Below are positions 4,302-39,458 of a stretch of 48,072 nucleotides of DNA, piece by piece; position 1 is the first letter of the stretch; the number at the start of each line of letters is the position of its first letter. Under the pieces are notes generated by a model that was given only the letters and a program-made list of their open reading frames with translations, had not been told where the DNA came from and did no database searches. The stretch spans positions 1 to 48,072 of the forward strand of contig JAJPJB010000023.1 in the NCBI GenBank assembly GCA_021324465.1. Reading direction: 5' to 3'. This stretch comes from Hyphomicrobiaceae bacterium. GTDB taxonomy: Bacteria; Pseudomonadota; Alphaproteobacteria; Rhizobiales; Xanthobacteraceae. The position numbers and the translations under genes are program-made.

Positions 4302-6386
4302 CTACCGGATTTCGGCTGCCCTTCGAAAGCCAAAGCCGGTCGCAGCCGCGACCAGATCCACCGCCCTGGCGATCCGTGCAGGGTCTTGCCGGCTCGCCCA
4401 GAACAGCGGACCGCCGCGATAATCGGGAAAGCCATAGCCGTGCGCGAATACAAGATCGATGTCGGATGCGCGCTGCGCGATGCCGTCGGCGAGAACCAGC
4501 CGCGCTTCGTTGATCATGGCGCCCAGCGCGCGGTCGACGATCTCTTCCGGCGCGATCTTGCGGCGAGCGAAGCCGTTGGCCGCCGACTCCTCGATGATGA
4601 TTTTTTCGACCAAGGGATCGGGCTCGCCACGGCGCGCGCCGTGCGGGTAGCCATACCAGCCCGCCCCGGTTTTTTGCCCAAAGCGCCCGGCCTCGCAGAG
4701 CCTGTCCAGGATCGCAACATGGCGGGCGCGCGGATCGCGCGTGGCCGCCTGTCGCTTGCGGTTGGCCCAGGCGATGTCGAGTCCGGACAGGTCGCCGACC
4801 CGGAAGGGGCCCATGGCGAAGCCAAAGTCTTCCAGCGCATCGTCGATGTCCTGGGGCAGCGCGCCTTCCTGCAGCATGAATTCGCACTGGTTGCGGTACA
4901 CGTTATAGATGCGATTGCCGATGAAACCTTCGCAGACGCCGGCGAGCACGCCGACCTTGCCGAGCCGGCGGGCCAGGGCGAATCCGGTCGCGAGTGTCTC
5001 GCGCGAAGTCTTGGCGCCGCGCACGATTTCCAGAAGCCGCATGACATTGGCCGGGCTGAAGAAGTGCAGGCCTAGCACAAGATGCGGACGGCCGGTTGCC
5101 GCGGCGAGTACATCGACGTTGAGATAAGATGTATTGGTCGCCAAGATCGCATCCGGCTTCATCACGCGATCGAGCTCGGCCATCACCTTGGCCTTGACTC
5201 CCATGTCTTCAAAGACGGCCTCGATAACGAGGTCGGCGTCGCGCGCCGGCGCAAGTTCGCTGCCCAGCGTCAGGCGCTCGAGCCGCGCTTGCGCTGTCGC
5301 CTGATCGATGCGCGTTTGCGCGACCGCGCGCGCTTGAAGCTCGGCGATTTTCGACTGGGCGCGCTGCAGCGCGTCCGTTTTGGTGTCGATCAGGAGCGTA
5401 TGCAGTCCGGATTCGATCAGCGCCGCGGCGATGCCGGAGCCCATGGTGCCGGCGCCGATGACCGCGACTTTGGCCAATGCTCTTGCCGGCACGCCTTCGA
5501 GGTCGCGAAGGCGTGAGGCTTCGCGCTCGGCAAAAAACAGATGGCGCAGCGCGAAGGCCTCCTCCGCCGTGCGCAGCGCATGAAACGCGGCGCGCTCCCG
5601 CGCCATGCCCTCATCAAGCGGCGTCTCAGCCGCCCAGCGCACCGCTTCGACGGCGCGGGCGATATAGGGCCGGCCCTTGGCCTTTTTCAGCGCGCTATCG
5701 GCCGCGGCCGCGACAACTTCGTCGTTCTCGGCGGGAACCGGCACAGCAGCCAGATTGCGCTTGCCGGACAGCGAAAGCGCAAGCGCAACCGCTTCCGCGC
5801 GCAAATCAGCCTTGGCGATGGCATCGAGCAAGCCGAGCGCGAGCGCCTCTTGCGCCGGCATGCGACGGCCAGAGGTGATGAATTCGATGGCTTTCGAGAC
5901 GCCGATGAGCCGCGGCACGCGTTGCGTTCCGCCCGCGCCGGGGATGATGCCGAGCTTCACCTCAGGCAGCGCGACCACCAGATCCGGTGCGCCGATCCGC
6001 GCATCGCAGGCGAGCGCAAGCTCAAAGCCGCCGCCCATGGCCGCGCCGTGCAAAGCGGCGACGATCGGCTTTGGACAATCACCGAGCGCGGCGAGCACCT
6101 GCGGCATTTCCGGCGGCAGCAGCGGGCCGCCAAACTCTTTCAGGTCGGCACCGGATACAAACGTCTTCCCGGCGCCGATCAACACCGCGGCCTTGATCCC
6201 GTCATCGGCGGCGAGTTCTCGCACCGCATCGAGGAGCTGCGCCCGCAGCGCCGCCGAGGCGACATTGACGGGCGGATTATCGAGCACGATCACGGCACAG
6301 CCGCGCTCACGCTCGAGCCGCACAATGCGCCTCTCGCGCTGCGCAAGCGAGGCTCCCGGATTTTTGGTCGCAGCCTGGTCACCCAT
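4302..6386 (-). CDS. FadB/FadJ-like bifunctional enoyl-CoA hydratase / 3-hydroxyacyl-CoA dehydrogenase
   Basis: The protein of about 694 residues has an N-terminal crotonase domain (GADLKEF; the oxyanion-hole helix start GGGFELALACD; catalytic glutamates around ALPEVKLGIIPGAGG). After it comes a 3-hydroxyacyl-CoA dehydrogenase domain with NAD loop GAGTMGSG and the HFFSPANVM motif, then the C-terminal dehydrogenase repeats. It would hydrate an enoyl-CoA and oxidise the 3-hydroxyacyl-CoA during beta-oxidation. I chose the ATG at 6386; an in-frame GTG at 6416 would add ten residues and neither has a clear ribosome site. It follows the MarR gene closely and is likely co-transcribed, giving the operon a beta-oxidation module. 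Fatty-acid versus ring-derived acyl-CoA preference is undetermined. Confidence 0.9.
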   Translation of the reverse strand: MGDQAATKNPGASLAQRERRIVRLERERGCAVIVLDNPPVNVASAALRAQLLDAVRELAADDGIKAAVLIGAGKTFVSGADLKEFGGPLLPPEMPQVLAALGDCPKPIVAALHGAAMGGGFELALACDARIGAPDLVVALPEVKLGIIPGAGGTQRVPRLIGVSKAIEFITSGRRMPAQEALALGLLDAIAKADLRAEAVALALSLSGKRNLAAVPVPAENDEVVAAAADSALKKAKGRPYIARAVEAVRWAAETPLDEGMARERAAFHALRTAEEAFALRHLFFAEREASRLRDLEGVPARALAKVAVIGAGTMGSGIAAALIESGLHTLLIDTKTDALQRAQSKIAELQARAVAQTRIDQATAQARLERLTLGSELAPARDADLVIEAVFEDMGVKAKVMAELDRVMKPDAILATNTSYLNVDVLAAATGRPHLVLGLHFFSPANVMRLLEIVRGAKTSRETLATGFALARRLGKVGVLAGVCEGFIGNRIYNVYRNQCEFMLQEGALPQDIDDALEDFGFAMGPFRVGDLSGLDIAWANRKRQAATRDPRARHVAILDRLCEAGRFGQKTGAGWYGYPHGARRGEPDPLVEKIIIEESAANGFARRKIAPEEIVDRALGAMINEARLVLADGIAQRASDIDLVFAHGYGFPDYRGGPLFWASRQDPARIARAVDLVAAATGFGFRRAAEIR

Positions 6387-6442
6387 GACGGCATTTGTCC
6401 GGCTGCCGTGCGGCACGGTCCGTCTCTAGTCCGAGCAGCGCG

Positions 6443-6958
6443 CTACTGATTGCAATCATAGGCAATACCGACTTCGACCACCGAATGCTTCAGCGCGGCC
6501 AGGTCTTTCATCAGCCGCTCTGCGGCTTCCGGGCTCAGGCCGTTGAACAGTGTTGCAAGCCAAGCCTCGTGCGCGGCGGCAAGTTTTTTGAAAATCTCCA
6601 TGCCCGCTTTGGTCAGCCGCACCACCGACGCGCGCCCGTCGCTGGGATCATCGACACGGCGCACATAGCCTTCCTCGATGAGCCGGTCGACAAGCCCGGT
6701 CAGATTGCCATTGGTGACCATCATGCGCTTCGACAGTTCGCTCAAACGCAGCCCGTTGGGCTCGCGATCCAATTGCGCCATCAGGTCGAAGCGCGGGAGC
6801 GTGAATTCGAACTCGCTGCGCAGCCGCTGTCGGATCTCGGCCGTGATGAGATTGGTGCACGAAAGCAGCCGCAACCACAGCCGCAACTGATGCTTGCTGC
6901 CCTTGGGCTCGTCACGCACCAGCGTTTCAACATCGGTATGTTCAAATTCACGCGGCAT
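6443..6958 (-). CDS. MarR-family transcriptional regulator
   Basis: This 171-residue winged-helix protein has the MarR layout: N-terminal dimerisation helices (LRLWLRLLSCTNLI), helix-turn-helix with NGNLTGLVDRL, wing DDPSDGRASVVRLT, and a C-terminal helix pair. It is clearly paralogous to the MarR protein at 34939-35415 (shared LPRFD, NGN-TG-VDRL, RLT-G and AAHE-W). GAGG lies upstream of the ATG. It sits between iorB and the FadB-like gene on the same strand. Such regulators are commonly relieved by aromatic acids or their CoA esters. The palindromes at 10816-10833 and 18520-18537 are its most plausible targets, which is inference from position. Confidence 0.9.
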   Translation of the reverse strand: MPREFEHTDVETLVRDEPKGSKHQLRLWLRLLSCTNLITAEIRQRLRSEFEFTLPRFDLMAQLDREPNGLRLSELSKRMMVTNGNLTGLVDRLIEEGYVRRVDDPSDGRASVVRLTKAGMEIFKKLAAAHEAWLATLFNGLSPEAAERLMKDLAALKHSVVEVGIAYDCNQ

Positions 6959-7070
6959 CAGCGCCTCTATGCAAGCAACGGCAGATGCAGATCATTGATG
7001 AACGAGCCTACATGTCAGATCAGGCGGCTGCGATTTCGATCAACCATTCAGGGGCAACAATGCGGGGAGT

Positions 7071-8615
7071 TTACAGGGTGGCGATGGTGGCAATGGCACC
7101 ATCCAATATCTTGCCGTCTTCGTCGGCCAAGGCCGCGTCGCGCAATCGCCGCACCCAATCAGGGGCGTCGCCGCGCTCGCGCAGCCGTATCGCGGCGGCG
7201 AGCGCCTTGTCGAATTTGGACAGGCCTCGGGCATGCGTGTCGGAATAGCCTTTCACCAGGCGGCGTAATTCGATGATGGCCTTTGCCAGCGCAGGATTTG
7301 AGGCGGCAGCGGCGCGCGCGGCTTCGAGCCAGGCATCGCGATGTGCCACTTCGCGCTTGTGCCGCAGAGTGGCGCGGCGGAAGCGCCGCAGGCCGGCGAG
7401 GAGATAGAGCGGCAGAAACCAGCGGATCGTGGTGGTGCGCACGCGGCGCCCTCGATTGACCACGCGGTCAAGCGCGTGAAGCAGGCGCGGCCGCGCCTCG
7501 AACCAAAGTCCTAGCTTTGCCGGCAGAGTGCCAATCACCTCCTCCATGCGCGGATGCATGAATTCGGTGATGTCCACGATTTGGTCCGGCGCAGCGGTGA
7601 CCTCGGCGCGCACGCGGTCAAAGCGGCTGGCCCGCGTCTTGAGGTCGGCGACGCGGATCACATCGTCGTAGGCCATGGCAAGCGCGATATATTTGGCGGC
7701 AGCGCGGACAAGCGTGGCGTCGGTGCCGTGTTGGAACGGCAGGAAAGTCGCAACCAGATCAAGATATTCGCGCCCGTAGGCGATATCCTGGAAATCGACC
7801 ACGCGCCGCAAACCGGCCGCCAGTATCGCATGCGCCTCCACCGGAAACTCGGCGCGCGCACGGGCAACCAGCGCATCGAACTGCGCATCGCCGATCGGCT
7901 CAAGCTTCGGCTCGGCCGTGCCCGCGACGGCTTTCACCGGCTTTACTGGATTTACGGCGCCATCGTAGCCAGCGGCAAAGGCGCGCAGACTTGCATCGAC
8001 GCCAACGCCGGCCTTGCGGATCGCCGCTTCGTACGCCTCGCGCGGAAACGGCAGCGCCTTCGCGCCGGCGAGCGCGCCGAACAGGACCGCGGAGATCGCG
8101 CTTCCCGTCCGTTCGGCGAGCGCCGCCATGTCGAAGGCGAGGAACCGCTTCGCCGCGACTTGCGCCGCCCGGTAGACCTTGGCGTCATCGGCAATGCCGT
8201 CGCCGGGCGCGATCTTTTCGGCCACCGCATAAGAGCGATGCGATGAGGCGATCAGTGTCGTGCGCTCCGGCGAGACCAGTCCGCGCTGCATGGCGCGGCC
8301 GGCCTCCATCAATTCGGCGCCGATCACGATGTCGACTTTGCCGGGCGTCGGCATAAGCGCCAGGACCGGGCAGCGGCCGTCGGCGCGCGCCTTGATCATT
8401 TCCACGTAATAGATGGTCGCGCCGGTGCGCTGCGCGACGCCCGGCACGGAGGTCGACTGCGCGATGAAACCTTGGCTCTCGGCCAGCGTCACAATCCAGT
8501 CGACCAGCACGCCGCCGCCCTGCCCGCCCATTGCCAAGACCGCCACCGAGATCGGCTCGGCGACGTCAAGCTGTTCGGGCCCATCCACATTGCGCATCGG
8601 CGTCATCACATTCAT
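7071..8615 (-). CDS. iorB: Indolepyruvate/2-oxoacid:ferredoxin oxidoreductase, beta subunit (long form)
   Basis: The 514-residue product begins MNVMTPMRNVDG. Residues up to about 220 form the gamma-type domain of 2-oxoacid oxidoreductases (VLAMGGQGGG near residue 31, SVPGVAQRTGA, PTPGKVDIVIGAEL). About 290 extra residues follow, an alpha-helical, basic-rich extension found in long proteobacterial IorB proteins and absent from the roughly 200-residue archaeal form. It pairs with IorA just upstream (stop at 8624, eight bases before this ATG) to turn a 2-oxoacid plus CoA into an acyl-CoA and CO2. The true substrate here may be an aryl-2-oxoacid other than indolepyruvate. Confidence 0.87.
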   Translation of the reverse strand: MNVMTPMRNVDGPEQLDVAEPISVAVLAMGGQGGGVLVDWIVTLAESQGFIAQSTSVPGVAQRTGATIYYVEMIKARADGRCPVLALMPTPGKVDIVIGAELMEAGRAMQRGLVSPERTTLIASSHRSYAVAEKIAPGDGIADDAKVYRAAQVAAKRFLAFDMAALAERTGSAISAVLFGALAGAKALPFPREAYEAAIRKAGVGVDASLRAFAAGYDGAVNPVKPVKAVAGTAEPKLEPIGDAQFDALVARARAEFPVEAHAILAAGLRRVVDFQDIAYGREYLDLVATFLPFQHGTDATLVRAAAKYIALAMAYDDVIRVADLKTRASRFDRVRAEVTAAPDQIVDITEFMHPRMEEVIGTLPAKLGLWFEARPRLLHALDRVVNRGRRVRTTTIRWFLPLYLLAGLRRFRRATLRHKREVAHRDAWLEAARAAAASNPALAKAIIELRRLVKGYSDTHARGLSKFDKALAAAIRLRERGDAPDWVRRLRDAALADEDGKILDGAIATIATL

Positions 8616-8623
8616 GCGCGGTC

Positions 8624-10774
8624 TCACGAGAACGCGATGCGGCGGCGGTCGCGGTGCCGTTGCAGGAAGCCGATCACCGCCCCGCGAAGCCGCGCCAGCA
8701 GGCGGTCGAACGTGGTCGGGTTGTGCACGATATCGGCGCGATAAAACGACGGGCACAGCACGGCGGCTTCGGCCACTTCGCCGCAATTGCCGCAGCCGAC
8801 ACAGGAATTATCCACCGCGGCGACCGGATCGTCCTTCAGCGGATCGTCGGTGCGCTTGACGGAGAGCGACGGGCAGCCGGATAGGCGGATACAGGCGTGA
8901 TCGCCGCTGCAGACATCCTCATCGACGCCGAAGCGCTCGCGCACCATGCGCTGCCCGGCTTTCACCGCTCTGTTGAACAACGGCTTGACGCGACGCTGCT
9001 TGTTCAACATGCATTCCGATGACGCAACGATGATTTTTGGACCCTTCTCGTTGGTCGTCAGCGCCTCTTTCAGCGTGTCGCGCACTTTTGCGACATCATA
9101 GGTCCGGTCAATCTGGCGCACCCAGCTCGCGCCGACGCCTTTCACCGCATCGGCGATCGGGTGCTTGGTCGAGCGCGAGCGGTTGTCGGCGCGCGAAGAC
9201 GGGATGTCTTGGCCGCCGGTGGCGGACGAATAATAATTGTCCACCACCATGATGACGCCGTCGTGCCGATTAAACACCGCATTGCCGATGCCGCTTGCCA
9301 AACCATTGTGCCAAAAACCGCCGTCGCCGATCATCGCGATCGGACGCTTGCCGGCTTTCACGTTGAAGGCCGAGGCCGAGGCCGGCCCGAGTCCGTAGCC
9401 CATCGTTGTCGCGCCGATGTTGAACGGCGGCAGAATAGAGAACAGGTGGCAGCCGATATCGGCGGAGACATGATGCGGACCGAGCTCTTTTTCGACGAGC
9501 TTCATCGCCGCAAAGATCGGCCGCTCCGGACAGCCGGTGCAGAAGCCGGGCGGGCGCGGCGGCACCACGGCAGCCAATGCTTTGATCTCGTCGGCGATTG
9601 GCTGCGCCGGCTCGTTGCGACCGCGGATCTGTTCGGGCAAAGCATCCGGCATCGTGGCGGCGAGAAATGCACGCAGGCCTGCCGACAGCGCTTCCGCCGT
9701 GTATTCGCCGGCGACCGGTAAGACGTCCTTACCGTAGATTTTGGTCGAGATCTCCGCCTTGCGCAGGATCGCGTGCAGCGCCGTTTCGATGAACTCCGGC
9801 TGCCCTTCCTCGACCATCAGCACCGCGGACTTGCCGGAGCAGAACGCCGCCAGCTCGCTGTCGATCAGCGGATAGGTCACGTTCATCACGTAGAGCGGTA
9901 CGCGCGTTGCGCCCCAGACATCGGCCAGGCCGAGCTGCTGCAGCGCGCGGATCACGCCGTTGTAGAGACCGCCTTGCAGCACGATGCCGATGTCGGCGAG
10001 CTCGCCATCGAAAGTCTCGTTGAGCTTGCGCGTTTTGATGAACTCGATCGCCGCGGGCAGGCGCTGCGCAATCTTCTCCTTCTCCTGCACAAAAGCGGCA
10101 GGCGGCAAGACGATCCGGCCGGTGTCACGCTGTGGGTTCTCCAGTGCCTGGGCCAGCGTGAACGGCGGCGGCTTGTTGTCCTTGGCAATGAAGCGGCCGT
10201 GAACGTGACAAGCGCGAATGCGCACTTCCAGCATCACCGGCGTGTTGGACGCTTCCGACAGCTCGAAGCCGTCTTCGACGGCCTTGACGATACTTTCCAG
10301 GTTGGGACGCGGATCGAGCAGCCAGATTTGCGACTTCATCGCAAAGGCGTGCGAGCGCTCCTGCATGATCGAGGAGCCCTCGCCGTAATCCTCGCCGATG
10401 ATGATCAGCGCGCCGCCCTTGACGCCGCCCGAAGCCAGATTGGCCAGCGCGTCTGAGGCCACGTTGGTACCGACCGTCGATTTCCAGGTCACCGCGCCGC
10501 GGATCGGATACATGACCGACGCCGACAGCATCGCGCCGGCAGCGGCTTCCGACGCCGAAGTCTCAAAATGCACGCCGAGCTCGGCGAGCACGTCTTGCGC
10601 GTCGGACAAAACGTCCATCAGATGCGAGATCGGCGCGCCCTGGTAGCCGCCGACATAGCCGACGCCGGACTGCAGCAGCGCCTTGGTGATCGCGAGAATC
10701 CCCTCGCCGCGGAATTCCTGGCCGGCGCCGAGTCTCAGATCGGCGACTTCCTTGGCAAACGAACGTTCAGCCAT
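8624..10774 (-). CDS. iorA: Indolepyruvate/2-oxoacid:ferredoxin oxidoreductase, alpha subunit
   Basis: The 716-residue protein has an N-terminal pyrimidine-binding domain (GYQGAPISHLMDV, FETSASEAAAGAM), a middle transketolase-C-like domain, and a TPP-binding domain with CTGCPERP and GDGGFWHNGLASGIGNA. The C-terminus is a ferredoxin-like module whose cysteines lie in CSGDHACIRLSGC and CVGCGNCG...CPSF. Known IorAB enzymes oxidatively decarboxylate arylpyruvates to aryl-acetyl-CoA and pass electrons to ferredoxin. Here the gene starts a sub-operon with iorB behind its own promoter and operator (10816-10844). Its neighbours (Rieske dioxygenase, cyclase-type hydrolase) make isatinate (2-aminophenylglyoxylate) an attractive alternative substrate, which is inference. 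Confidence 0.92.
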   Translation of the reverse strand: MAERSFAKEVADLRLGAGQEFRGEGILAITKALLQSGVGYVGGYQGAPISHLMDVLSDAQDVLAELGVHFETSASEAAAGAMLSASVMYPIRGAVTWKSTVGTNVASDALANLASGGVKGGALIIIGEDYGEGSSIMQERSHAFAMKSQIWLLDPRPNLESIVKAVEDGFELSEASNTPVMLEVRIRACHVHGRFIAKDNKPPPFTLAQALENPQRDTGRIVLPPAAFVQEKEKIAQRLPAAIEFIKTRKLNETFDGELADIGIVLQGGLYNGVIRALQQLGLADVWGATRVPLYVMNVTYPLIDSELAAFCSGKSAVLMVEEGQPEFIETALHAILRKAEISTKIYGKDVLPVAGEYTAEALSAGLRAFLAATMPDALPEQIRGRNEPAQPIADEIKALAAVVPPRPPGFCTGCPERPIFAAMKLVEKELGPHHVSADIGCHLFSILPPFNIGATTMGYGLGPASASAFNVKAGKRPIAMIGDGGFWHNGLASGIGNAVFNRHDGVIMVVDNYYSSATGGQDIPSSRADNRSRSTKHPIADAVKGVGASWVRQIDRTYDVAKVRDTLKEALTTNEKGPKIIVASSECMLNKQRRVKPLFNRAVKAGQRMVRERFGVDEDVCSGDHACIRLSGCPSLSVKRTDDPLKDDPVAAVDNSCVGCGNCGEVAEAAVLCPSFYRADIVHNPTTFDRLLARLRGAVIGFLQRHRDRRRIAFS

Positions 10775-10815
10775 CTGGGCCTCTATCGCGCGACGATCCG
10801 GCTTGCCGCGCCAGT

Positions 10816-10844
10816 TATTTTAGACTTAAAGCAATGCCGGTCAA
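10816..10844 (-). promoter_or_regulatory. Sigma70-type promoter of iorAB with embedded MarR-type operator
   Basis: Read on the minus strand, TTGACC (10844-10839) and TAAAAT (10822-10817) are separated by 16 bases, five of six matches each to TTGACA and TATAAT. The spacer and -10 hold an 18-base imperfect palindrome, TATTTTAGACTTAAAGCA on the plus strand (10816-10833). It matches 14 of 18 bases of the perfect palindrome at 18520-18537. A repressor bound here would block the polymerase. The start codon of iorA is 42 bases downstream. Confidence 0.6.
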
Positions 10845-10865
10845 CCGCCGTTCAAGCGCGTCTCG

Positions 10866-11597
10866 TCAGATGACAATCGTCCCGATGCTGGCGCCCCCGC
10901 AGACAAACAGCGTCTGTCCGGTCACGAATCCATTGGCGCGGTCGCAGAAGAACATCACCGCCCGCGCGACATCGTCGCTGCGGCCGAGCCGCTTTACCGG
11001 GATCGCCTCCGCCAGCGCCTGTTCGCGCACGCTGTCCGCCGGAATGACGCTGCGGAACATTTCGGTATCGGCAATCGGACCGGGCGCCACAACATTGACG
11101 GTAATGCCGTCGGCTGCGAGTTCAAGAGCCCAGGTCCGCGCCATGCCGATCATGCCAGCTTTGGTCGCGGCATAGGCCGAGCGCGTCTGCAGACCGAGCG
11201 CGCCGCGCGAGGACATCAGGACGATGCGACCGAAGCGCTCGCGCTTCATCGCCGGCAGGAGAGCCTGCGCAAGCGAAATCGCCGCGCCAAGATGAAGCTG
11301 CGTCAGCGCGTCGAGATCCTCCTGCTGGACGTCCGGCAGCAGTGCCGGCCGGATAGCGCCGGCGTTGTGCACGACATGCGAGACCGCAAATCGGCACGCA
11401 ATCTCTTTGGCCGCCTGTTCGGTCGCCGCGCGGTCAAGCAAATCGACTTCGATCGCGTGCAGCTTTGCGTGCGTTGTTGGCGGCTTGCGCCGCGCCAGCG
11501 CGATGACCTCGTAATCGGCCGCCAGCATCTGCCGGCAGATCTCCGCGCCGATGCCGGTCGAGGCGCCGGTGACCACCGCGACATTGCGCGCCGTCAT
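10866..11597 (-). CDS. SDR-family NAD(P)-dependent oxidoreductase
   Basis: The 243-residue protein has all classical SDR motifs: TGASTGIGAE near residue 10, HNAG in strand 4, catalytic serine in MSSRGALG, YAATK, and the PGPIADTEMF substrate loop. It probably oxidises or reduces a hydroxyl/keto intermediate of the dioxygenase pathway. GGGAGCGG precedes the ATG, and the gene begins 13 bases after the stop of the cyclase-family gene, so it is in the same operon. It is the last gene before the iorAB promoter. The exact substrate is unknown. Confidence 0.88.
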   Translation of the reverse strand: MTARNVAVVTGASTGIGAEICRQMLAADYEVIALARRKPPTTHAKLHAIEVDLLDRAATEQAAKEIACRFAVSHVVHNAGAIRPALLPDVQQEDLDALTQLHLGAAISLAQALLPAMKRERFGRIVLMSSRGALGLQTRSAYAATKAGMIGMARTWALELAADGITVNVVAPGPIADTEMFRSVIPADSVREQALAEAIPVKRLGRSDDVARAVMFFCDRANGFVTGQTLFVCGGASIGTIVI

Positions 11598-11610
11598 GAC
11601 CGCTCCCGTG

Positions 11611-12384
11611 TCACGACACCAGCGCCAGCACGCGCAATGGGCTGCCCGAGCCCTGCTTGATCTTTAACGGCGCGGCGATGATCACGGCGCCCTTGGGCGG
11701 AAGCAGATCGAGATTGGTCAGGCATTGCAGGCCGAAGCGGCCTTTACCGTGCATATAAAAATGCGCCGGAAACGGCGGATTGAAGTGATGGCCCTGGCCG
11801 AAATCGGTGCCAATGGTCTCGGTGCCGAAGCCATGCACATCGCGTTGCTCGACAAGCCATTTTACGACCGCGGGCTCCGGCCCAGGCGTGTGCGCGCCGT
11901 CGTCACGCAGATTGGCGTAATCGGCAAAACTCTGCTTCGACCAGTCGGTGCGCAACAAAACCCAATGGCCCGGCTCGATCTTGCCGTGCCGCGCTTCCCA
12001 GGCCTCGACAAAGGGAATCGTCAATGCGAAATCCGGATCGGCCGCACACTCATTCGAGCAGTCGATCACAACAGCGGGGGCGATGAACTTTCTCACGTCG
12101 ATCGTGTCGACGGCGTTGTTCTGCAAATCCTTGCCGGAGATCCAGTGGATCGGCGCGTCGAAATGCGTGCCGGTATGCTCGCCGAGGCTGATGTTGTTCC
12201 AGTACCAGGCCGGCCCGCGCTCGTCGTAACGCGACACTTCCTCGATGCGAAACGGCGCGCATTGGCCGAGCTCGGGTGCAAGAACAATGGTCGGAAAATC
12301 CTGCGACAGGGTCTGCGTCAGATCGATGACGCGGATCTGGCCGTTGGCGATGGCGCGGGCAAAAGACAGGACATCGACGCTCAT
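11611..12384 (-). CDS. Cyclase-family (kynurenine formamidase / isatin hydrolase-like) metal-dependent hydrolase
   Basis: The 257-residue product starts MSVDVLSFARA with AAGGAAG just upstream; the frame is open further 5' but that part overlaps the preceding gene. The metal site is HTGTHFDAPIH (H70, H74, D76, H80), the hallmark of the cyclase family that includes kynurenine formamidase and isatin hydrolase. Isatin hydrolase opens the lactam of isatin to isatinate and its length is similar. Location beside a Rieske dioxygenase and iorAB, with a 2-aminobenzoyl-CoA operon in the same window, favours an isatin-like amide substrate over N-formylkynurenine. Family membership is firm, the substrate is inference. 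Confidence 0.85.
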   Translation of the reverse strand: MSVDVLSFARAIANGQIRVIDLTQTLSQDFPTIVLAPELGQCAPFRIEEVSRYDERGPAWYWNNISLGEHTGTHFDAPIHWISGKDLQNNAVDTIDVRKFIAPAVVIDCSNECAADPDFALTIPFVEAWEARHGKIEPGHWVLLRTDWSKQSFADYANLRDDGAHTPGPEPAVVKWLVEQRDVHGFGTETIGTDFGQGHHFNPPFPAHFYMHGKGRFGLQCLTNLDLLPPKGAVIIAAPLKIKQGSGSPLRVLALVS

Positions 12385-12395
12385 GGTGACTTCCT

Positions 12396-14816: not shown

Positions 14817-14824
14817 GCCGCCGA

Positions 14825-29899: not shown

Positions 29900-29990
29900 G
29901 ATTGGCTCCTTCATGGGCAGGAAGGCGGCGGAAGACACAGCGATCTGCCCTAAAGCGACCCCGGTCTTTGCACTCCGTCTTGCACCGATC

Positions 29991-30019: not shown

Positions 30020-30063
30020 CTGGGCGGCGACACGCGCGCAATCGGCCCAAACAATCAGCCTGG

Positions 30064-31673: not shown

Positions 31674-31800
31674 TTCCTTCTATGCCGTCCTGCCGGCCTG
31701 CCGTTTCTTGGGATTGATAACTCAAGGTATTGTTTTCTCTCGGCTTTTATCATGCGCCGGCATCAAAGTTCCACGCTGCCCCGCGGCCTTTGAAAATCGC

Positions 31801-31826
31801 TTCAAACTTGAACGTTCAAGCTTGAA
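31801..31826. promoter_or_regulatory. 26-base near-perfect palindrome upstream of the aminobenzoyl-CoA operon
   Basis: The site reads TTCAAACTTGAAC then GTTCAAGCTTGAA. The two 13-base arms are inverted repeats with a single mismatched pair, centred between 31813 and 31814. It lies 62 bases before the operon's first start codon at 31888, in an AT-rich island. Size and symmetry fit a MarR dimer site, and a MarR gene lies in the operon (34939). I could not place a convincing -35/-10 pair. Confidence 0.6.
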
Positions 31827-31887
31827 ATATTTGGCCGTGGGTGCCATGCTCCGCGACTCACATGGCTCAACCCAAGGGCGGCATCGC

Positions 31888-34179
31888 ATGAAGATCGCTT
31901 GCCTCGGAGGCGGCCCGGCTGGCCTTTATTTCGCGATCAGCATGAAGCTGCGCGACGCCGCCCACGACATCACCGTGTTCGAGCGCAACCGGCCCGACGA
32001 TACGTTCGGCTGGGGCGTGGTGTTTTCCGACGAGACGTTTGACAACATCACCGCCAACGACCCGCTCAGCGCCGAAATGATCCGTTCCCATTTCGCCTAT
32101 TGGGACGACATCGCCGTGCATTATCGCGGACAGCGCATCGTCTCGGGCGGCCACGGCTTCTCCGGCATCGCTCGCAAAAAGCTGTTGATGCTGCTGCAGG
32201 AGCGCGCGCGGGCGCTCGGCGTGGACCTTCGTTTCCAGACTGAGATCGCAAGCGCCGGCGCGCTGGCCAAAGACCATGATCTCGTGATCGCCGCGGACGG
32301 GCTGAATTCAAGGACACGCAGCGAATTCGCCGAACATTTCAAGCCCGCCGTCGACACCCGCAAGAACAAATTTGTCTGGCTCGGCACGAATCAAAAATTC
32401 GACGACGCCTTCACCTTCATCTTCGAAGAAACCGAGAACGGCTGGATCTGGGCGCACGCCTACCAGTTCGATACCGGTACCGCCACCTTCATCGTCGAAT
32501 GCTCGCCTGCGACCTGGGACAAATTCGGCTTCGGCGCGATGAGCCAGGAGGAAAGCTGCCGCGCCTGCGAACGCATCTTTGCAAAATATCTCGGCGGTCA
32601 TCGGCTGATGTCGAATGCGGCGCATCTGCGCGGCTCGGCCTGGCTGAATTTTCCCCGCGTGCTGTGCGAGAAGTGGTCGTACCGCAACATCGCGCTGATG
32701 GGCGACGCCGCCGCCACGGCGCATTTTTCCATCGGTTCGGGCACCAAGCTTGCCATGGAGAGCGCAGTCGCGATGGCGAATTATCTGCACAGCGAGCCGA
32801 CATTGCACGCTGCATTTTCGAAATATGAGGAGGCGCGCCGCACCGAAGTGCTGCGTCTGCAGTCCGCGGCGCGCAATTCGCTGGAATGGTTCGAGGATGT
32901 CGAGCGCTATCTGCATCTCGACCCGATTCAGTTCAACTATTCGCTGCTGACGCGCTCGCAGCGCATCAGCCACGAAAACTTGCGGCTGCGCGACAAGAAA
33001 TGGCTCGAAGGCGCCGAAGCCTGGTTTCAGCGGCTCGCCGGCGCAAGCGACAATGTCGTGCGGCGGCCGATGTTCGCGCCGTTTCGGCTGCGCGATCTGC
33101 GGCTGAAGAACCGCGTCGTCGTCTCGCCGATGGCGCAATACAAGGCGGTCGATGGCTGCCCGACCGATTGGCATTTGGTACACTATGGCGAGCGCGCCAA
33201 GGGCGGCGCGGGTCTGGTCTGCATCGAGATGACCTGCGTGAGCGCGGAAGGCCGCATCACGCCCGGCTGCACCGGCATGTACGCGCCGAAACATGAGGCG
33301 GCCTGGAAGCGCATTGTCGACTTTGTCCATGCCGAGACTGATGCAAAAATCTGTTGCCAGCTCGGCCATTCGGGCGCCAAGGGCTCGACCCAGCTCGGCT
33401 GGGAGGAAATGGACGCGCCACTGAAGGACGGCAACTGGCCGCTGATGTCGGCCTCTGCCACCGCATGGTCGGATCGCAACCAGCGCGCGCGCGCGATGAC
33501 GCGCGCCGATATGGACTGCGTGCGCGAGCAATTCGTGTCGGCTGCGAAAATGGCGCAGCGCGCCGGTTTCGACATGCTCGAAATTCATTGCGCGCACGGC
33601 TATCTGCTCTCTTCTTTCATCACGCCGCTGACCAATTTGCGCACTGACGAATATGGCGGCTCGCTCGAGAATCGCATGCGCTATCCGCTTGAAATCTTCC
33701 ATGCGGTGCGCGAAGTGTGGCCGGCAGAGAAACCGATCTCCGTCCGTATCTCCGCGAACGACTGGGTCGGCGAAAGCGGCATCCAGCCGCCGGACGCAGT
33801 CGCCATCGCGCGCATGCTGCAGGAGGCCGGTGTCGACATTTGCGACGTGTCCGCCGGGCAGACCTCGATCCATGCGCGCCCGGTCTATGGCCGCATGTTT
33901 CAGACGCCGTTCTCCGATCGTATCCGCAACGAGACCGGCATGGCGACCATGGCGGTCGGCAATATCTTCGATCCGGATCACGTCAACTCGATCCTGATGG
34001 CCGGCCGCGCCGATCTGGTGTGCCTGGCGCGGCCGCATCTCGCCGATCCGTACTGGACGCTACACGCCGCGGCAAGGCTCGGCGAACGCTGCGAGGCCTG
34101 GCCGCTGCCCTATCTCGCGGGACGCGATCAGCTTTACCGCCTTTCAGGCAATCCGGAGCCGACGCCAAGCACGGTATGA
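31888..34179 (+). CDS. 2-aminobenzoyl-CoA monooxygenase/reductase-like bifunctional flavoprotein (or salicylyl-CoA 5-hydroxylase)
   Basis: The 763-residue protein starts [15 protein letters not shown] at the ATG at 31888. Residues 1 to about 380 form a class A FAD monooxygenase ([42 protein letters not shown]). Residues about 395-760 form an old-yellow-enzyme NADH:flavin oxidoreductase ([54 protein letters not shown]). This fusion is known from 2-aminobenzoyl-CoA monooxygenase/reductase of Azoarcus evansii, which hydroxylates the ring and then reduces it, and from salicylyl-CoA 5-hydroxylases. The aryl-CoA ligase, hydratase and dehydrogenase genes downstream support CoA-bound aerobic ring degradation. 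The aminobenzoyl assignment over salicylyl is inference. Confidence 0.88.
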
Positions 34180-34180
34180 G

Positions 34181-34945
34181 ATGACAGACCTTGCCGGGAA
34201 ACACGCGCTGGTGACAGGAGGCGGCAGCGGCATAGGCGCGAGCATCGCCAAGACGCTGGCGCGCGCCGGCGCCCAGGTCATGATCGCCGGCCGGCGCAAG
34301 GAGGCGCTTGAGCAAACGGCAGCCTGCGCCGCCAATATGTCCGCCATCGTCGCCGACGTCACCGATCAGGATTCGATCGCAAAGCTGTACCGATACGCGG
34401 AGACCGTGCATGGAGCCTTCGATATCGTCGTCGCCAATGCAGGCAGTGCCGAGAGCGCGCCGGCGGAACAGATCACGCCCGCCCGTTGGAGCAAGACGCT
34501 CGACGTCAATCTCACCGGCGCCTTCTTTTCGGTAAAGCCGGCGCTTGCCGGTATGCGTGCCCGCGGCTGGGGGCGTATCATCTTCATTGCCTCGACCGCC
34601 GGCCTGAAAGGCTATGCGTATGTCGCCGCCTATGTCGCGGCCAAGCATGGCGTGGTCGGTCTCGCCCGCGCTTTGGCGGTGGAGACCGCAAAGGACGGCA
34701 TCACCGTCAATGCTGTCTGCCCCGGCTACACCGAAACGCCGTTGCTCGAGCAAGCGGTGCGCCGCATCGCGCTGAAGACCGGGCGCAGCGAGGCCGAGGC
34801 CCGCCATGCCGTTATGGCCAGCAACCCGCAAGGCCGCATCATTGCCCCGCAAGAGATTGCCAATGTCGTGCTCTGGCTCTGCGCCGCCGAGAGCGCCGCC
34901 ATTACCGGCCAGGCGATTTCCGTATCAGGAGGTGAAACATGGTAA
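34181..34945 (+). CDS. SDR-family 3-hydroxyacyl-CoA-type dehydrogenase
   Basis: The 254-residue protein is a classical SDR: TGGGSGIGAS, NAGSAES, catalytic serine in IASTAGLKG, YVAAK, and VCPGYTETPL. It starts one base after the upstream stop and overlaps the MarR gene by seven bases. In this operon it most likely oxidises a 3-hydroxyacyl-CoA or ring hydroxyl formed after ring reduction. Its active-site residues are complete, unlike the SDR at 2514. Confidence 0.88.
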   Translation: MTDLAGKHALVTGGGSGIGASIAKTLARAGAQVMIAGRRKEALEQTAACAANMSAIVADVTDQDSIAKLYRYAETVHGAFDIVVANAGSAESAPAEQITPARWSKTLDVNLTGAFFSVKPALAGMRARGWGRIIFIASTAGLKGYAYVAAYVAAKHGVVGLARALAVETAKDGITVNAVCPGYTETPLLEQAVRRIALKTGRSEAEARHAVMASNPQGRIIAPQEIANVVLWLCAAESAAITGQAISVSGGETW

Positions 34946-35415
34946 GTGCGCCGTTGCCGGCGGAGGGCCGCGAGGCCGAGAGCAAAGCGCGGCTGCGCCT
35001 GTGGATCAGGCTGCTACGCGCCAGCCGTCAGATCGAGAAGATCACGCGCGAGCGCCTCAAATCGCAATTCAATGCGACGCTGCCGCGCTTCGACGTGATG
35101 GCTGCGCTCTATCGCCGGCCCAACGGCATGCTGATGAGCGAGATATCGCGGTTTCTCATGGTCTCGAACGGCAATGTCACCGGCATTGTCGACCGGCTGG
35201 TGTGCGACGGTTTTGTCGCGCGCTCGCAACGCGACGGCGACCGCCGCACCTCTTTCGTGCGGCTGACGCGAAAAGGCCGCGCTGCCTTTGCCGAAATGGC
35301 GGCGGCGCATGAGGGCTGGATCGACGAACTGCTCGGCGGCATCCCGGTGCGCGAGGCCGAGCAACTGTCGGCCAAGCTGAAGCTATTCAAGAGCGGCTGG
35401 GAGGGCGAAGCGTGA
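34939..35415 (+). CDS. MarR-family transcriptional regulator, probable regulator of the aminobenzoyl-CoA operon
   Basis: The 158-residue winged-helix protein has dimerisation helices ([17 protein letters not shown]), helix-turn-helix ([18 protein letters not shown]), wing ([13 protein letters not shown]) and C-terminal helices with AAHEGW. It is a paralogue of the MarR protein at 6443-6958. It lies inside the operon, overlapping the SDR gene before it and joined as GTGA to the hydratase after it, so it is probably autoregulated. The palindrome at 31801-31826 is the obvious candidate target. Related MarR regulators of aromatic-CoA pathways respond to aryl-CoA esters. Confidence 0.9.
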
Positions 35416-36236
35416 GCACCGTCACGACCAGCATGGCCGAGTTCCGGCCCAAACATTTTCTCTGGCGCATGGACGGCCGGGTTGCCGCGATCAAGCTCAA
35501 TCGGCCGGAGCGCAAAAATCCGCTCACCTTCGACTCCTATGCCGAGCTGCGCGATGCATTTCGCGCCATGCCCTATGCCGGCGACGTCGATGCGGTCGTG
35601 TTTCTCCCGAACGGCGGCAATTTTTGTTCTGGCGGCGATGTGCACGAGATTATCGCGCCGCTTATTGCCATGGCGATGAAAGATCTTTTGGCCTTCACGC
35701 GCATGACCGGCGACCTGGTCAAGGCAATGCTCCACTGTGGCAAGCCGATCATCGCCGCGATCGACGGCGTTGCCGCCGGCGCCGGCGCCATCATTGCCAT
35801 GGCGTCGGACATCCGCATCGCAACGCCGCAGGCGCAGACCGCGTTTCTGTTCAATCGTGTCGGGCTTGCCGGTTGCGACATGGGCGCCTGCGCGATCCTG
35901 CCGCGGATCATCGGTCAGGGCCGCGCCGCCGAGCTGCTCTTTACCGGGCGTTCCATGACGGCGCGGGAGGGTGAAGCCTGGGGATTCTTCAACAAGCTGG
36001 TCGCCGCCGACGCCTTGGAGCAGGAGGCTCTCTCGCTGGCGCATCGCATTGCTTCGGGCCCGACTTTCGCCAATGGCATCACCAAGACGCAGCTCAATCA
36101 GGAATGGTCGATGAGCCTCGATCAGGCGATCGAGGCGGAAGCGCAGGCGCAGGCGATCTGCATGCAGACCAAAGACTTCGAGCGCGCCTATCGCGCCTTC
36201 GCCGTCAAGCAGAAACCGGTCTTCGAGGGCGACTAG
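35412..36236 (+). CDS. Enoyl-CoA hydratase/isomerase-family protein
   Basis: This 274-residue crotonase-fold protein starts with GTG overlapping the MarR stop, with GGGAGGG upstream. It shows the oxyanion-hole segments [10 protein letters not shown] and [17 protein letters not shown], and the second-glutamate region [17 protein letters not shown], where the usual glutamate/glutamate pair is not obvious. It would hydrate or isomerise the alicyclic enoyl-CoA formed from the aryl-CoA. Ring-opening hydrolase activity is an alternative within this fold. Confidence 0.88.
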
Positions 36237-37384
36237 TGGCTGATAAGAGCTTTCTCAGTTGGCCGTTCTTTGCCGATCGCCATCGCGCGCTTGCCGAGAC
36301 GATCGAGCGCTGGAGCGCGGCCAATCTGCCGGTCGCGCATCGCGATGTCGATGCCGCATGCCGTGATCTCGTCGCAAGACTCGGCCGCGACGGTTTTCTC
36401 AAGCACACGGCGCCCGATCCCGACGCGCCCGAGCCGATCGATGTTCGCGCGCTCTGTCTGATCCGCGAGACGCTGGCGCGTCACGACGGCCTTGCCGATT
36501 TCGCTTTCGCCATGCAGGGCCTGGGCGCCGGCCCGATCAGCCTGTTCGGCAATGCCGCGCAGCGGCAGTGGCTGCGGCGCACGCGGACCGGCGAAGCGAT
36601 TGCCGCCTTTGCGCTTACCGAGCAGAAGTCCGGGTCCGATGTCGCCAATATCGCCATGACGGCGCGCCGCGAGGGCGAGCATTACGTTCTTGACGGCGAG
36701 AAGACCTGGATTTCGAACGGCGGCATCGCCGACATCTACGTGGTCTTCGCCCGCACGGGCGAAGCACCCGGCGCCAAAGGCCTTTCCGCCTTTCTGGTGC
36801 CCGGCGACACGAACGGGCTTTCGGTTGCCGAACGGCTCGACGTCATTGCTCCGCATCCGCTGGCGCGATTGCAATTTGATCGCGTGCGCGTGCCGGCATC
36901 CGCCTTGATCGGCGCGCCCGGCGGTGGCTTTAAGACCGCCATGGCGACGCTCGATGTGTTCCGCGCCACGGTTGGCGCCGCAGCGCTCGGCTTCGCCCGG
37001 CGCGCGCTCGACGAGGCAGCGGCGCGCGTGCGCGGCCGCGCGCTGTTCGGCGGACCCATGGCCGAGTTGCAGATGGTGCAAGGCTATATCGCCGAGATGG
37101 CGCTCGACATCGACGCCGCGGCGCTGCTGGTCTATCGTGCGGCCTGGACCAAGGACTCGGGCGCCGCTCGCGTCACGCGCGAAGCGTCGATGGCAAAGCT
37201 TTTTGCCACCGAGCGGGCGCAGCGCGTCATCGACAAGGCGGTGCAGCTTCACGGCGGCGACGGCGTCCGCCACGGCGCGACCGTCGAGCGCCTGTATCGC
37301 GAGATCAGAGCGCTGCGCATTTATGAGGGTGCGTCCGAAGTTCAGAAAATCGTCATCGCGCGCCAGGCGCTTTCAGGGGCATGA
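36236..37384 (+). CDS. Acyl-CoA dehydrogenase
   Basis: The GTG at 36236 overlaps the hydratase stop by one base, has GAGGG upstream and gives 382 residues ([19 protein letters not shown]), the normal family length. Motifs are the FAD loop [34 protein letters not shown] and the C-terminal [17 protein letters not shown] with the catalytic-base glutamate in the YEGASE position. It introduces a double bond into an acyl-CoA and passes electrons to ETF. In this operon the substrate is likely the reduced ring acyl-CoA. Confidence 0.92.
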
Positions 37385-37387
37385 TCC

Positions 37388-39046
37388 ATGACTCTGCAAT
37401 CGACTCTGCAACGGCCATCGCAAACGCTCGGCTATACGGCGCACCAGGATACGTTCACCCGCGACAATCTTCCGCCGCCGGAGCAATGGCCGCATATCTC
37501 GCTTGCAGGCTTCGATTATCCGGAGGTGCTCAACGCCGGCGTTGAGCTCACCGATCGCATGGTGGCGCGCGGCTTTGGCGATCACGTCGCGCTCATCGGC
37601 AACGGCCGGCAGCGTACCTACAAGGAGCTCTCCGACTGGACCAATCGCATCGCGCATGCGCTGGTCGAGGACTTTGGCATCAAGCCCGGCAATCGCATTC
37701 TTATTCGCGCCGCCAACAATCCCGCGGTGGTCGCATGCTGGCTTGCCGCGACCAAAGCCGGCGCCGTCGTGGTCAACACGATGCCGATGCTGCGTGCCGG
37801 CGAGCTCAGCAAGATCGTCGATAAGGCGGAGGTCGGGCTTGCGCTCTGCGATACGCGGCTGACGGACGAGCTCGTCACCTGCGCCAAGACCAGCAAATAT
37901 CTCAAACAGGTGATCGGCTTCGACGGCACCGCCAATCACGATGCCGAGCTCGACCGCGTCGCGCTCAGCAAGCCGGTGACATTCGAGGCGGTCAAGACCG
38001 GCCGCGACGACGTCGCACTGTTGGGCTTCACCTCGGGCACCACCGGCGAGCCCAAGGCGACCATGCATTTTCATCGCGATCTTCTGATCATCGCCGACGG
38101 CTATGCCAAAGAAATTCTCGGCGTGACGCCGAACGACATCTTTGTCGGCTCGCCGCCGCTCGCCTTCACCTTCGGTCTGGGCGGCCTGGCGGTCTTCCCG
38201 CTGCGTTTCGGAGCCACCGCGACGCTTCTGGAAAACGCTTCGCCCGCCAACATGATCGAGATCATCGAGCGCTACAAGGCGACAATCTCATTCACCGCCC
38301 CGACCGCCTATCGCGTCATGCTGGCGGCGATGGATCAGGGCGCCAATCTTTCGTCATTGCGCGCCGCCGTGTCGGCCGGCGAGACTTTGCCGGCCCCCGT
38401 CTTCAAGGACTGGGTCGCCAGGACCGGCAAGCCCATTCTCGACGGCATCGGCTCGACCGAAATGCTGCACATTTTCATCTCCAACCGTTTCGGCGATGCC
38501 GCGCCTGGCACGACCGGCAAGCCGGTGACCGGCTACGAAGCCAAGATCGTCGACGATGACATGAACGAAAAGCCGCGTGGCGAAATTGGGCGCCTTGCGG
38601 TGCGTGGTCCGACCGGCTGCCGCTATCTCGCCGACAAGCGGCAGACGAGCTATGTGCGCGACGGCTGGAATCTGACCGGTGATTCGTTCTCGCAGGACGA
38701 AACCGGCTATTTCCATTTCGCCGCGCGCAGTGACGACATGATCATCTCGGCCGGCTACAACATCGCCGGCCCCGAAGTCGAGGCGGCGCTGCTGTCGCAT
38801 CCCGACGTCCGGGAATGCGCGGTAATCGGCGCGCCGGATGAAGGCCGCGGCCAGATCGTCGAAGCCTATGTCGTGCTGCAAGAAGGCGTCCTAGCCGGCG
38901 TCGACACGATCAAACGCCTGCAGGAGCATGTCAAGGCGACGATTGCGCCATTCAAATATCCGCGCTCCGTCAAATTCGTCGACGCGCTGCCCAAGACTCA
39001 GACCGGCAAGATACAGCGCTTCCGCCTGCGATCGGGCGCGCCGTAA
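37388..39046 (+). CDS. Benzoate-CoA ligase-family enzyme, probable 2-aminobenzoate-CoA ligase
   Basis: The 552-residue ANL enzyme has FTSGTTGEPKATMHFHRD (A3), DGIGSTEMLHIF (A5), GWNLTGDSF (A7), ARSDDMIISAGYNIAGPEVE (A8, first 20) and the A10 lysine in PKTQTGKIQRF. The IGSTEMLHIF segment with the aromatic-acid pocket is typical of benzoate-type ligases, including 2-aminobenzoate-CoA ligase. It would activate free anthranilate so that the monooxygenase/reductase at 31888 can act. It starts three bases after the dehydrogenase stop. A 4-hydroxybenzoate or salicylate ligase cannot be excluded. Confidence 0.9.
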   Translation: MTLQSTLQRPSQTLGYTAHQDTFTRDNLPPPEQWPHISLAGFDYPEVLNAGVELTDRMVARGFGDHVALIGNGRQRTYKELSDWTNRIAHALVEDFGIKPGNRILIRAANNPAVVACWLAATKAGAVVVNTMPMLRAGELSKIVDKAEVGLALCDTRLTDELVTCAKTSKYLKQVIGFDGTANHDAELDRVALSKPVTFEAVKTGRDDVALLGFTSGTTGEPKATMHFHRDLLIIADGYAKEILGVTPNDIFVGSPPLAFTFGLGGLAVFPLRFGATATLLENASPANMIEIIERYKATISFTAPTAYRVMLAAMDQGANLSSLRAAVSAGETLPAPVFKDWVARTGKPILDGIGSTEMLHIFISNRFGDAAPGTTGKPVTGYEAKIVDDDMNEKPRGEIGRLAVRGPTGCRYLADKRQTSYVRDGWNLTGDSFSQDETGYFHFAARSDDMIISAGYNIAGPEVEAALLSHPDVRECAVIGAPDEGRGQIVEAYVVLQEGVLAGVDTIKRLQEHVKATIAPFKYPRSVKFVDALPKTQTGKIQRFRLRSGAP

Positions 39047-39059
39047 ACGAGGGCCGATA

Positions 39060-39458
39060 ATGACAATGACGTTTCTCCATCCGCGGAGCTGGAAGCGGCC
39101 GAGCGGTTACACCAACGGCATCGCCGCCAAAGGCCGCATCGTTTTTCTTGCCGGCCAAGTCGGCTGGAACGCCGAGCAGAAATTCGAGAGCAGGGATTTC
39201 GTCGCGCAAGCGCGCCAGGCGCTCGCCAATATCGTCGCCCTGATCGCCGAAGCTGGCGGCAGCGCGGAAAATATCACGCGCCTGACCTGGTTCGTCGTCG
39301 ACAAGGCGGAGTATCTGTCGCGACTGGGCGACCTCGGCAAAGCCTATCGCAGCATCATGGGCGAGCACTTTCCGGCCATGTCGCTGGTGCAAGTCGTGGC
39401 GCTGGTCGAGGACGAGGCCAGGGTTGAAATCGAGGCGACCGCCGTGGTGCCGGATTAA
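39060..39458 (+). CDS. RidA/YjgF-family protein without the canonical arginine
   Basis: The 132-residue protein is a Rid-family chorismate-mutase-like trimer subunit (VFLAGQVGWNAEQ; QARQALANIVALIAEAGG; VEIEATAV). GAGGG lies five bases before the ATG. The arginine that RidA needs for imine/enamine hydrolysis (F-P-A-R-S in RidA) is M107 here (FPAMSLVQV), so it belongs to an arginine-less Rid subgroup. An amino-substituted ring intermediate in this pathway would pass through an enamine, so the location is suggestive, but the mechanism must differ from RidA. Confidence 0.88.
   Translation: MTMTFLHPRSWKRPSGYTNGIAAKGRIVFLAGQVGWNAEQKFESRDFVAQARQALANIVALIAEAGGSAENITRLTWFVVDKAEYLSRLGDLGKAYRSIMGEHFPAMSLVQVVALVEDEARVEIEATAVVPD

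Follow-up and report, generated by a model that had tools for sequence, protein, structure and literature searches.

An iad-type auxin-degradation locus joined to a 2-aminobenzoyl-CoA operon, with IadAB as the probable link

Loci for the bacterial degradation of indole-3-acetate (IAA), termed iad, have been published for Variovorax, Achromobacter and Bradyrhizobium (PMC9613470, PMC12633357; here and below, published work is cited from the parts of each text that were available). In Variovorax, IadCDE are assigned as a monooxygenase for IAA and IadJ as the dehydrogenase yielding C10H9NO4; the steps to dioxindole-3-acetate have been shown, F, G, H and I are required, and isatin, dioxindole, isatinate and anthranilate have been detected, with anthranilate given as the product (PMC12633357). 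From annotation, IadF was described as an acyl-CoA (coenzyme A) synthase, IadG as a ketothiolase and IadH as an alcohol dehydrogenase, and IadI was suggested as a possible amidase (PMC12633357). Oxygenation, CoA activation and side-chain removal toward isatin or dioxindole and isatinate are already part of the published iad pathway (PMC9613470, PMC12633357). The genes iadA and iadB have been termed exclusive markers of iad-like operons (PMC9613470); the available parts of the published descriptions assign no reaction to them and no enzyme to the conversion of isatinate to anthranilate, and a search of the available text of PMC12633357 returned no mention of either gene. The steps reconsidered below are those of G/H and A/B. 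Here we analyze a stretch of 48,072 nucleotides (the window), contig C32 of a Hyphomicrobiaceae genome of 4.57 Mb and 99.7% completeness, in which an iad-type locus is accompanied by an operon for the degradation of 2-aminobenzoyl-CoA (abm).

Several other systems bear on these steps. Phenylglyoxylate:acceptor oxidoreductase converts an arylglyoxylate and CoA to the aroyl-CoA and CO2. The abm pathway of Azoarcus/Aromatoleum evansii, which we take to consist of AbmG, a short-chain dehydrogenase/reductase (SDR), an enoyl-CoA hydratase, an acyl-CoA dehydrogenase, a ligase, RidA and a MarR regulator, has all of these in common with the window. The anaerobic iaa pathway of Aromatoleum ends at 2-aminobenzoyl-CoA (cited in PMC9613470). 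In Sal, Gly takes the place of the nucleophilic Cys of thiolases, the enzyme is incapable of thiolysis, and Tyr302 of the YDCY motif is the base (PMC12329534).

The explanation that we favor, and consider fairly probable, is that an iad-type auxin locus is joined to abm in the window through an IadAB that would oxidize isatinate to 2-aminobenzoyl-CoA. In the proposed route, IadCDE and IadJ would convert IAA to dioxindole-3-acetate, as published for Variovorax, and a ligase would form its CoA ester; IadG and the DUF35 part of IadH would then cleave the ester by a retro-aldol reaction to isatin and acetyl-CoA. IadI would hydrolyze isatin to isatinate (2-aminophenylglyoxylate), IadAB would convert isatinate and CoA by oxidative decarboxylation to 2-aminobenzoyl-CoA and CO2, and AbmG and the abm beta-oxidation enzymes would open the ring. 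The predicted retro-aldol, isatin hydrolase and IadAB steps are supported by sequence and genome context, and we infer that all steps of the route occur in the source organism itself. An earlier interpretation of the window from its letters (the sequence-only reading) had drawn three operons into one such route: the genes it reported were confirmed, not all of those between the operons belong to the IAA route, and the interpretation as a whole is partly supported.

The minus-strand run from 18421 to 6443 extends from a racemase-family gene through the gene for IorB with DUF6537, with a MarR gene last. The plus strand carries the genes of a Liv importer and of an acyl-CoA ligase at 18605–25017, and the abm operon lies, with part of an NMT1 importer, in the run 30064–39458:

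17648–18421, minus: Asp/Glu-racemase-family gene, first in the iad operon (PF01177)
16647–17630, minus: IadC, ferredoxin-type reductase (family match)
15312–16625, minus: IadD, Rieske oxygenase alpha subunit (family match; 71–88% identity in 80 loci, the best 80 of 573)
14825–15307, minus: IadE, Rieske oxygenase beta subunit (PF00866)
13641–14816, minus: IadG, putative thiolase-fold retro-aldolase without nucleophilic Cys (best PDB match 9myr, CtSal, 3e-49)
12396–13640, minus: IadH, DUF35 (ChsH2) fused with a degenerate SDR domain (domain and motif comparison)
11611–12384, minus: IadI, isatin hydrolase A type with GLQC, WxW and HxxxHxDxxxH motifs (PDB 5nnb/5nna, E ~1e-111)
10866–11597, minus: IadJ-like SDR dehydrogenase (Pfam; same place as in iad loci)
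8624–10774, minus: IadA-like IorA with thiamine pyrophosphate domain and C-terminal Cys-rich motifs of iron-sulfur type (TIGR03336, 286 bits, under the cut-off of 651)
7071–8615, minus: IadB-like IorB with DUF6537, 2-oxoacid:ferredoxin oxidoreductase beta subunit (NF006179, 693 bits, cut-off 348; DUF6537, POR)
6443–6958, minus: MarR-family regulator, possible IadR, following iadB (PF01047, 3e-13)
18605–23392, plus: Liv-type importer, livK, livH, livMG fusion and livF (family match; beside many iad loci)
23389–25017, plus: acyl-CoA ligase of PRK06155 type (NF004808, 820 bits, cut-off 722)
31888–34179, plus: AbmG, 2-aminobenzoyl-CoA/salicylyl-CoA monooxygenase-reductase family (NF006101, 1291 bits, cut-off 1078)
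34181–34945, plus: abm SDR
34939–35415, plus: MarR regulator of the abm operon
35412–36236, plus: abm enoyl-CoA hydratase, PRK08258 (NF006107, 475 bits, cut-off 330)
36104–37384, plus: abm acyl-CoA dehydrogenase
37388–39046, plus: benzoate-CoA-ligase-family enzyme, probable anthranilate-CoA ligase (TIGR02262, 370 bits, just below the cut-off of 375)
38928–39458, plus: RidA-type imine deaminase

To place the minus-strand run, we scanned bacterial and archaeal genomes with IadD and took the best 80 of 573 stretches as loci; the genera represented include Bradyrhizobium, Rhodopseudomonas, Aromatoleum, Achromobacter and Nitratireductor. Among the 63 of these of at least 19 kb, matches of at least 40% identity near IadD were found for J and E in 63, C in 53, G and H in 50, I in 49, and A and B in 48. 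The gene arrangement is more than chance, since A, B, C, D, E, G, H, I and J each recur in 48–63 of the 63 loci. The marker set of iad-like loci, iadA/iadB (COG4231/COG1014) with the Rieske genes iadDE, is present in the window, and genes C to J stand in a conserved neighborhood, with F absent from its usual position. By orthology and synteny, the run 6443–18421 is an iad-type locus, IAA being its presumed substrate; the window is ordinary as an iad locus and less usual as a joined iad-abm cluster.

The window has the same C-D-E-G-H-I-J and A-B set as the published loci, with its MarR gene beside B and not beside iadA, which the regulator iadR adjoins in the available description of Variovorax; relatives of the window's MarR protein at 40–54% occur in 26 of the 80 loci. 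It further differs in an extra racemase-family gene, in AbmG lying ~15 kb from IadD, in our different reading of the G/H and A/B chemistry, and in the replacement of F by a ligase after the Liv genes. The latter (23389–25017) shares 30–35% identity with the ligase found within other iad loci and is not canonical IadF, which it probably replaces. One other locus (L009) has both a PRK06155-type ligase and canonical IadF. Relatives of the racemase-family gene at 78–81% also head the iad operon in L010 and L012, and L201 and L204 have a 42% relative close to IadG.

The sequence-only reading had anticipated much of this. The enzyme classes it named, among them Rieske, thiolase-fold, DUF35, cyclase, IorAB, Liv, ligase and abm proteins, are all present as open frames with family matches; the iad type to which it had pointed for comparison agrees in orthology and synteny; and the 2-aminobenzoyl-CoA-type operon it had called complete is anchored by the large protein's score to NF006101. 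Its operon range of 8624–18421 left out IorB (7071–8615) and the MarR gene that follows it, and the racemase-family gene went unmentioned. Oxygenation to dioxindole-3-acetate agrees with the published route, with the correction that the Rieske enzyme is reported as a monooxygenase and that the SDR IadJ forms dioxindole-3-acetate (PMC12633357).

The surer part of our reading concerns IadG and IadH. The best structural relative of IadG in the PDB is CtSal (9MYR, 3e-49), and Ltp2 (6OK1) matches at 6e-35. With minimum thresholds of 40% identity and 75% coverage, the 80 loci yielded 60 orthologues of IadG. In all 60, the position of the thiolase nucleophilic Cys is Gly, within GG(A/V)S, the motifs YDDYP and GGQLSxGQ are invariant, and the Cys of YDCY, the catalytic acid of Sal, is Asp. 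The DUF35 domain of IadH is related to ChsH2 (6ok1_B, 1e-8), and its SDR domain retains the catalytic Tyr in 14 of 58 orthologues and the Lys in 22 of 58; in the window, Tyr is present and Glu occupies the Lys position. In four loci of Achromobacter's family (L181, L183, L184 and L187), IadH is only 137–145 amino acids long, the SDR half is missing and J follows directly; one of these short proteins, scanned for domains, contained DUF35 domains alone. The catalytic residues being missing in both proteins, we reject their assignment as a ketothiolase and an alcohol dehydrogenase.

IadG and IadH resemble Sal–Shy and Ltp2–ChsH2 in a thiolase fold without nucleophilic Cys, a YDx(Y/F) motif, a DUF35 partner and a cleavage of beta-hydroxyacyl-CoA. 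They differ in having YDDY and not YDCY or YDHF, a DUF35 domain fused to a degenerate SDR and not to a hydratase, and a proposed indolic substrate: by its motifs, IadG is Sal-like and not a Sal. A retro-aldolase of the Sal/Ltp2 type with a DUF35 partner appears to be the best reading of the pair, as the sequence-only reading had proposed for its nucleophile-less thiolase; the fusion of the DUF35 partner with an SDR domain was absent from its account. Such a pair would naturally release isatin and acetyl-CoA from dioxindole-3-acetyl-CoA. IadI is closest to isatin hydrolase A (PDB 5nnb), whose signature is a manganese site HxxxHxDxxxH, a WxW pocket and GLQC (PMC6117287), and the metal-site, WxW and GLQC motifs are found in the window protein and in 57 of 57 orthologues. 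By sequence, IadI is of the isatin hydrolase A type, with isatin as its expected substrate, which bears out the earlier assignment of this cyclase-family enzyme.

For IadAB, the argument is one of chemistry and genome context. Isatinate is 2-aminophenylglyoxylate, and a CoA-dependent 2-oxoacid oxidoreductase would thus yield 2-aminobenzoyl-CoA; the likeness to phenylglyoxylate:acceptor oxidoreductase is one of reaction only, the subunit make-up of IadAB being different. Compared with the anaerobic Aromatoleum pathway, the same endpoint would be reached with different genes, and compared with the A. evansii abm pathway, isatinate would provide a second entry at the CoA ester, besides the ligase. 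The window's IorA has no match in the PDB at E 0.001; for AbmG, each of the 60 matches listed is related to one of its two halves (OYE-type, VioD-type). Strong build-up of C8H7NO3, the formula of isatinate, was reported only in strains overexpressing iadC-K2 (PMC12633357), which by our own reading of the gene order are without iadAB.

The 80 loci derive from iad-positive genomes of which 48, holding 48 of the loci, were searched: IadA has a match of at least 65% identity in 47 of the 48, and AbmG (NF006101) is found in all 48, in 45 above the cut-off and in three through partial matches. As a check of specificity, anthranilate 1,2-dioxygenase of the TIGR03228 type exceeds its cut-off in none of the 48 and has weaker matches in five. 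In the window's own family, IadD occurs in 53 of 391 genomes, and AbmG is found in 53/53 genomes with IadD versus 182/338 without; in Achromobacter's family, IadD occurs in 63 of 200 genomes, and the corresponding counts are 63/63 and 46/137. The Fisher tests of this co-occurrence ignore the relatedness of the genomes, and the 48-genome set overlaps the two family samples (53 and 63). Genomes with no IadD match and an IorA of the iad class, defined as at least 63% identity by a line set after seeing a gap in the results, have AbmG in 35/40 and 13/13 cases, versus 147/298 and 33/124 among genomes with neither; at least three of the former (G219, G116 and G467) still hold other iad genes. On this context IadAB probably oxidizes isatinate to 2-aminobenzoyl-CoA, and the earlier proposal of this step is supported.

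We then considered IorAB-like genes away from iad. After setting apart three loci with other iad genes nearby (L140, L170 and L191), 39 of 42 further IorA loci remained, 38 from IadD-negative genomes and one from the IadD-positive G128. Seven of them have an isatin hydrolase no more than 5 kb away, 15 have one or more abm genes within 9 kb, 20 show at least one of these two features, and two show both (L142 and L189). Where iorAB is detached from iad in iad-positive genomes, an isatin-hydrolase neighbor was present in five of eight loci read. Of 15 iorAB-linked cyclases (L144/L145 aside), ten have GLAS, the isatin hydrolase B signature, three GLQC and one GLTS, and one is cut; the one compared with the PDB was closest to isatin hydrolases. 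These contexts suggest that IadAB-like genes connect isatin hydrolase with AbmG in a way that is, in part at least, independent of auxin. In L189 (17389–18984) and L121 (5795–7375), an amine-oxidase-like flavoprotein, a possible source of isatin, lies beside isatin hydrolase and iorAB. In G128 (IorA at C1:5348484, IadD at C1:3262272), the only listed IorA of the class sits with abm genes, ~2 Mb from iad.

Joined clusters (ARRANGEMENTS) place iad and abm genes next to each other in several different layouts. An abmG run diverges from iorA in L119/L120 and, with ~4 kb between, in Aromatoleum evansii (L049 and L129); iad and abm genes stand end to end in L131 and with Liv genes in between in L130; and two genomes of a third genus (L201 and L204) have the order rid-acd-abmG, marR, ligase, livK, I, H, G, racemase, Liv. 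Fifteen genomes of Achromobacter's family have AbmG placed between iorA and iadD, with no more than 8.4 kb to each. Four of these (L180–L187) have the run iorA-iorB-marR-small gene-abmG-...-isatin hydrolase-C-D-E-F-G-H-J, with E not called in L184 and, in both L180 and L184, an unresolved stretch between abmG and the hydrolase gene. The L180–L187 runs, L119/L120, L201 and L204 showed no ligA-type ligase; in the L119/L120 genome the sole ligA match at E 1e-80 is 37% identical, as is the best match in G017, which has iad and abmG. In A. evansii KB740 (L049, L129), one of two AbmG copies adjoins the iad locus. The small gene of L182 encodes a thioesterase and is followed by a gentisate-type cupin, an FAA hydrolase and a carbon-nitrogen hydrolase, a set that suggests a 5-hydroxyanthranilate branch; an Alcaligenes strain with an indole-isatin-anthranilate-gentisate route is described, its anthranilate-to-gentisate step unexplained in the available text of the review (PMC6221969).

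A number of observations weigh against the favored explanation. The sampled genomes are not independent of one another, with 37 of the 53 IadD-positive genomes of the window's family belonging to one genus, and NF006101 does not tell enzymes for 2-aminobenzoyl-CoA from those for salicylyl-CoA. In 19 of the 39 IorA loci without iad, no isatin hydrolase and no abm gene lies nearby, and ten of the 12 with at least two abm genes are from one genus. C8H7NO2, whose formula matches dioxindole and not isatin, accumulates in an iadI mutant (PMC12633357), which counts against the release of isatin by IadGH, so a reduction would occur somewhere. All 17 genomes checked with iorAB near abmG (the 15 and two more) have a ligA homologue of 50–56% identity elsewhere, and the ligase-free clusters therefore suggest, and do not prove, direct formation of the CoA ester. 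The neighbors that were scanned do not decide the substrate of these homologues: L199 shows two-component genes together with an alpha/beta hydrolase, a transporter and a dehydratase; L198 has a ketopantoate reductase along with transport genes of TRAP and Liv type; and L196 has one ArgJ gene.

In the published route, isatinate would yield free anthranilate, the abm ligase (37388–39046) would activate it and IadAB would have some other job. Anthranilate is the reported end product, and Variovorax iadC-K2 alone restored it fully in a deletion of the locus (PMC12633357), which implies that IadAB is not needed for anthranilate. The abm operons of the window, A. evansii (L129), L130, L131 and others carry a ligA-type ligase, as expected if the substrate is free anthranilate, and the claim of the sequence-only reading that the route avoids free anthranilate was not borne out for the window, whose abm operon holds its own benzoate-CoA-ligase-family enzyme. 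We nevertheless regard this explanation as unlikely: the available published descriptions assign no enzyme to the step from isatinate to anthranilate, genes of the IadAB type often accompany isatin hydrolase and abm where iad is absent, and a ligA-type ligase is not seen in the fused clusters L119/L120, L180–L187, L201 and L204. The family name would instead make IadAB a true indolepyruvate oxidoreductase, converting tryptophan-derived indolepyruvate to indoleacetyl-CoA and feeding the locus from above, and such an enzyme is cited as reported in an indolepyruvate-to-IAA route (PMC10946135). This is very improbable, as IadA falls far short of the equivalog for the alpha subunit of indolepyruvate:ferredoxin oxidoreductase (TIGR03336, 286 bits against a cut-off of 651) and the same IorA class can stand beside isatin hydrolase and AbmG in IadD-negative genomes (L142, L189).

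The two halves of the window could also be separate neighboring pathways, the abm operon degrading another compound with a second Rieske pair, a flavin adenine dinucleotide (FAD) monooxygenase and the NMT1 importer. Parts of the right half do recur in one genus with their own iorAB and without a neighboring iad operon, but abm and iad are contiguous in several arrangements and AbmG is present in all sampled IadD-positive genomes, and we find the separation doubtful. It may nonetheless hold together with an isatinate-oxidizing IadAB, abm serving two inputs. The genes concerned are:

25111–27027, plus: second Rieske alpha/beta pair (36%/43% to IadD/IadE)
27180–28301, minus: FAD monooxygenase (family match)
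28340–28780, minus: small gene of the other input module (relative in G182)
28877–30139, minus, and 30064–31673, plus: NMT1-type ATP-binding cassette importer (family match)

Relatives of the second Rieske alpha at 76–78% occur in G128 and G182 (L176, L179), with a beta relative in G128; those of the FAD monooxygenase at 74–79% in G182 and G242; a 50% relative of the small gene in G182; and importer relatives in G128, G182 and G242 (61–77% in L168, L172 and L179). These relatives lie close to iorAB and abm genes, and IadD is absent from G182 and G242 and ~2 Mb away in G128. By their relatives, the pair, the monooxygenase, the small gene and the importer look like another aromatic input module, and the abm operon of the window may serve two inputs. 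We set the pair, the monooxygenase and the importer aside as lying outside the IAA route.

Taken jointly, we give slightly better than even chances to a wider proposal: that IadAB is a new CoA-acylating isatinate:ferredoxin oxidoreductase and IadGH a nonsteroid retro-aldolase of the Sal/Ltp2 kind, that the aerobic iad route ends at 2-aminobenzoyl-CoA as in anaerobes with free anthranilate as a shunt, that isatin hydrolase, IadAB and AbmG without iad form a general isatin/indole sink, and that some betaproteobacteria finish through 5-hydroxyanthranilate and a gentisate-type dioxygenase. Neither the IadGH retro-aldolase nor the IadAB isatinate-oxidation assignment was found in searches of open-licence PMC literature. 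Assigning IadAB and correcting IadG/IadH would complete the iad pathway and tell the fate of the ring carbon, and would matter where iad cassettes are used to engineer strains that degrade auxin; iadA and iadB serve as exclusive markers of the auxin-degrading loci of root bacteria. For bacteria that degrade indole, IadAB is also a candidate, open to assay, for the gap that separates isatin from ring cleavage, and the window served as a lead to the comparative case for the two reassignments.

One further gene adjoins the iad operon:

4302–6416: FadB-like enoyl-CoA hydratase/3-hydroxyacyl-CoA dehydrogenase

It could complete the breakdown of the ring product; its relatives in some iad loci are at only 28–32% identity.

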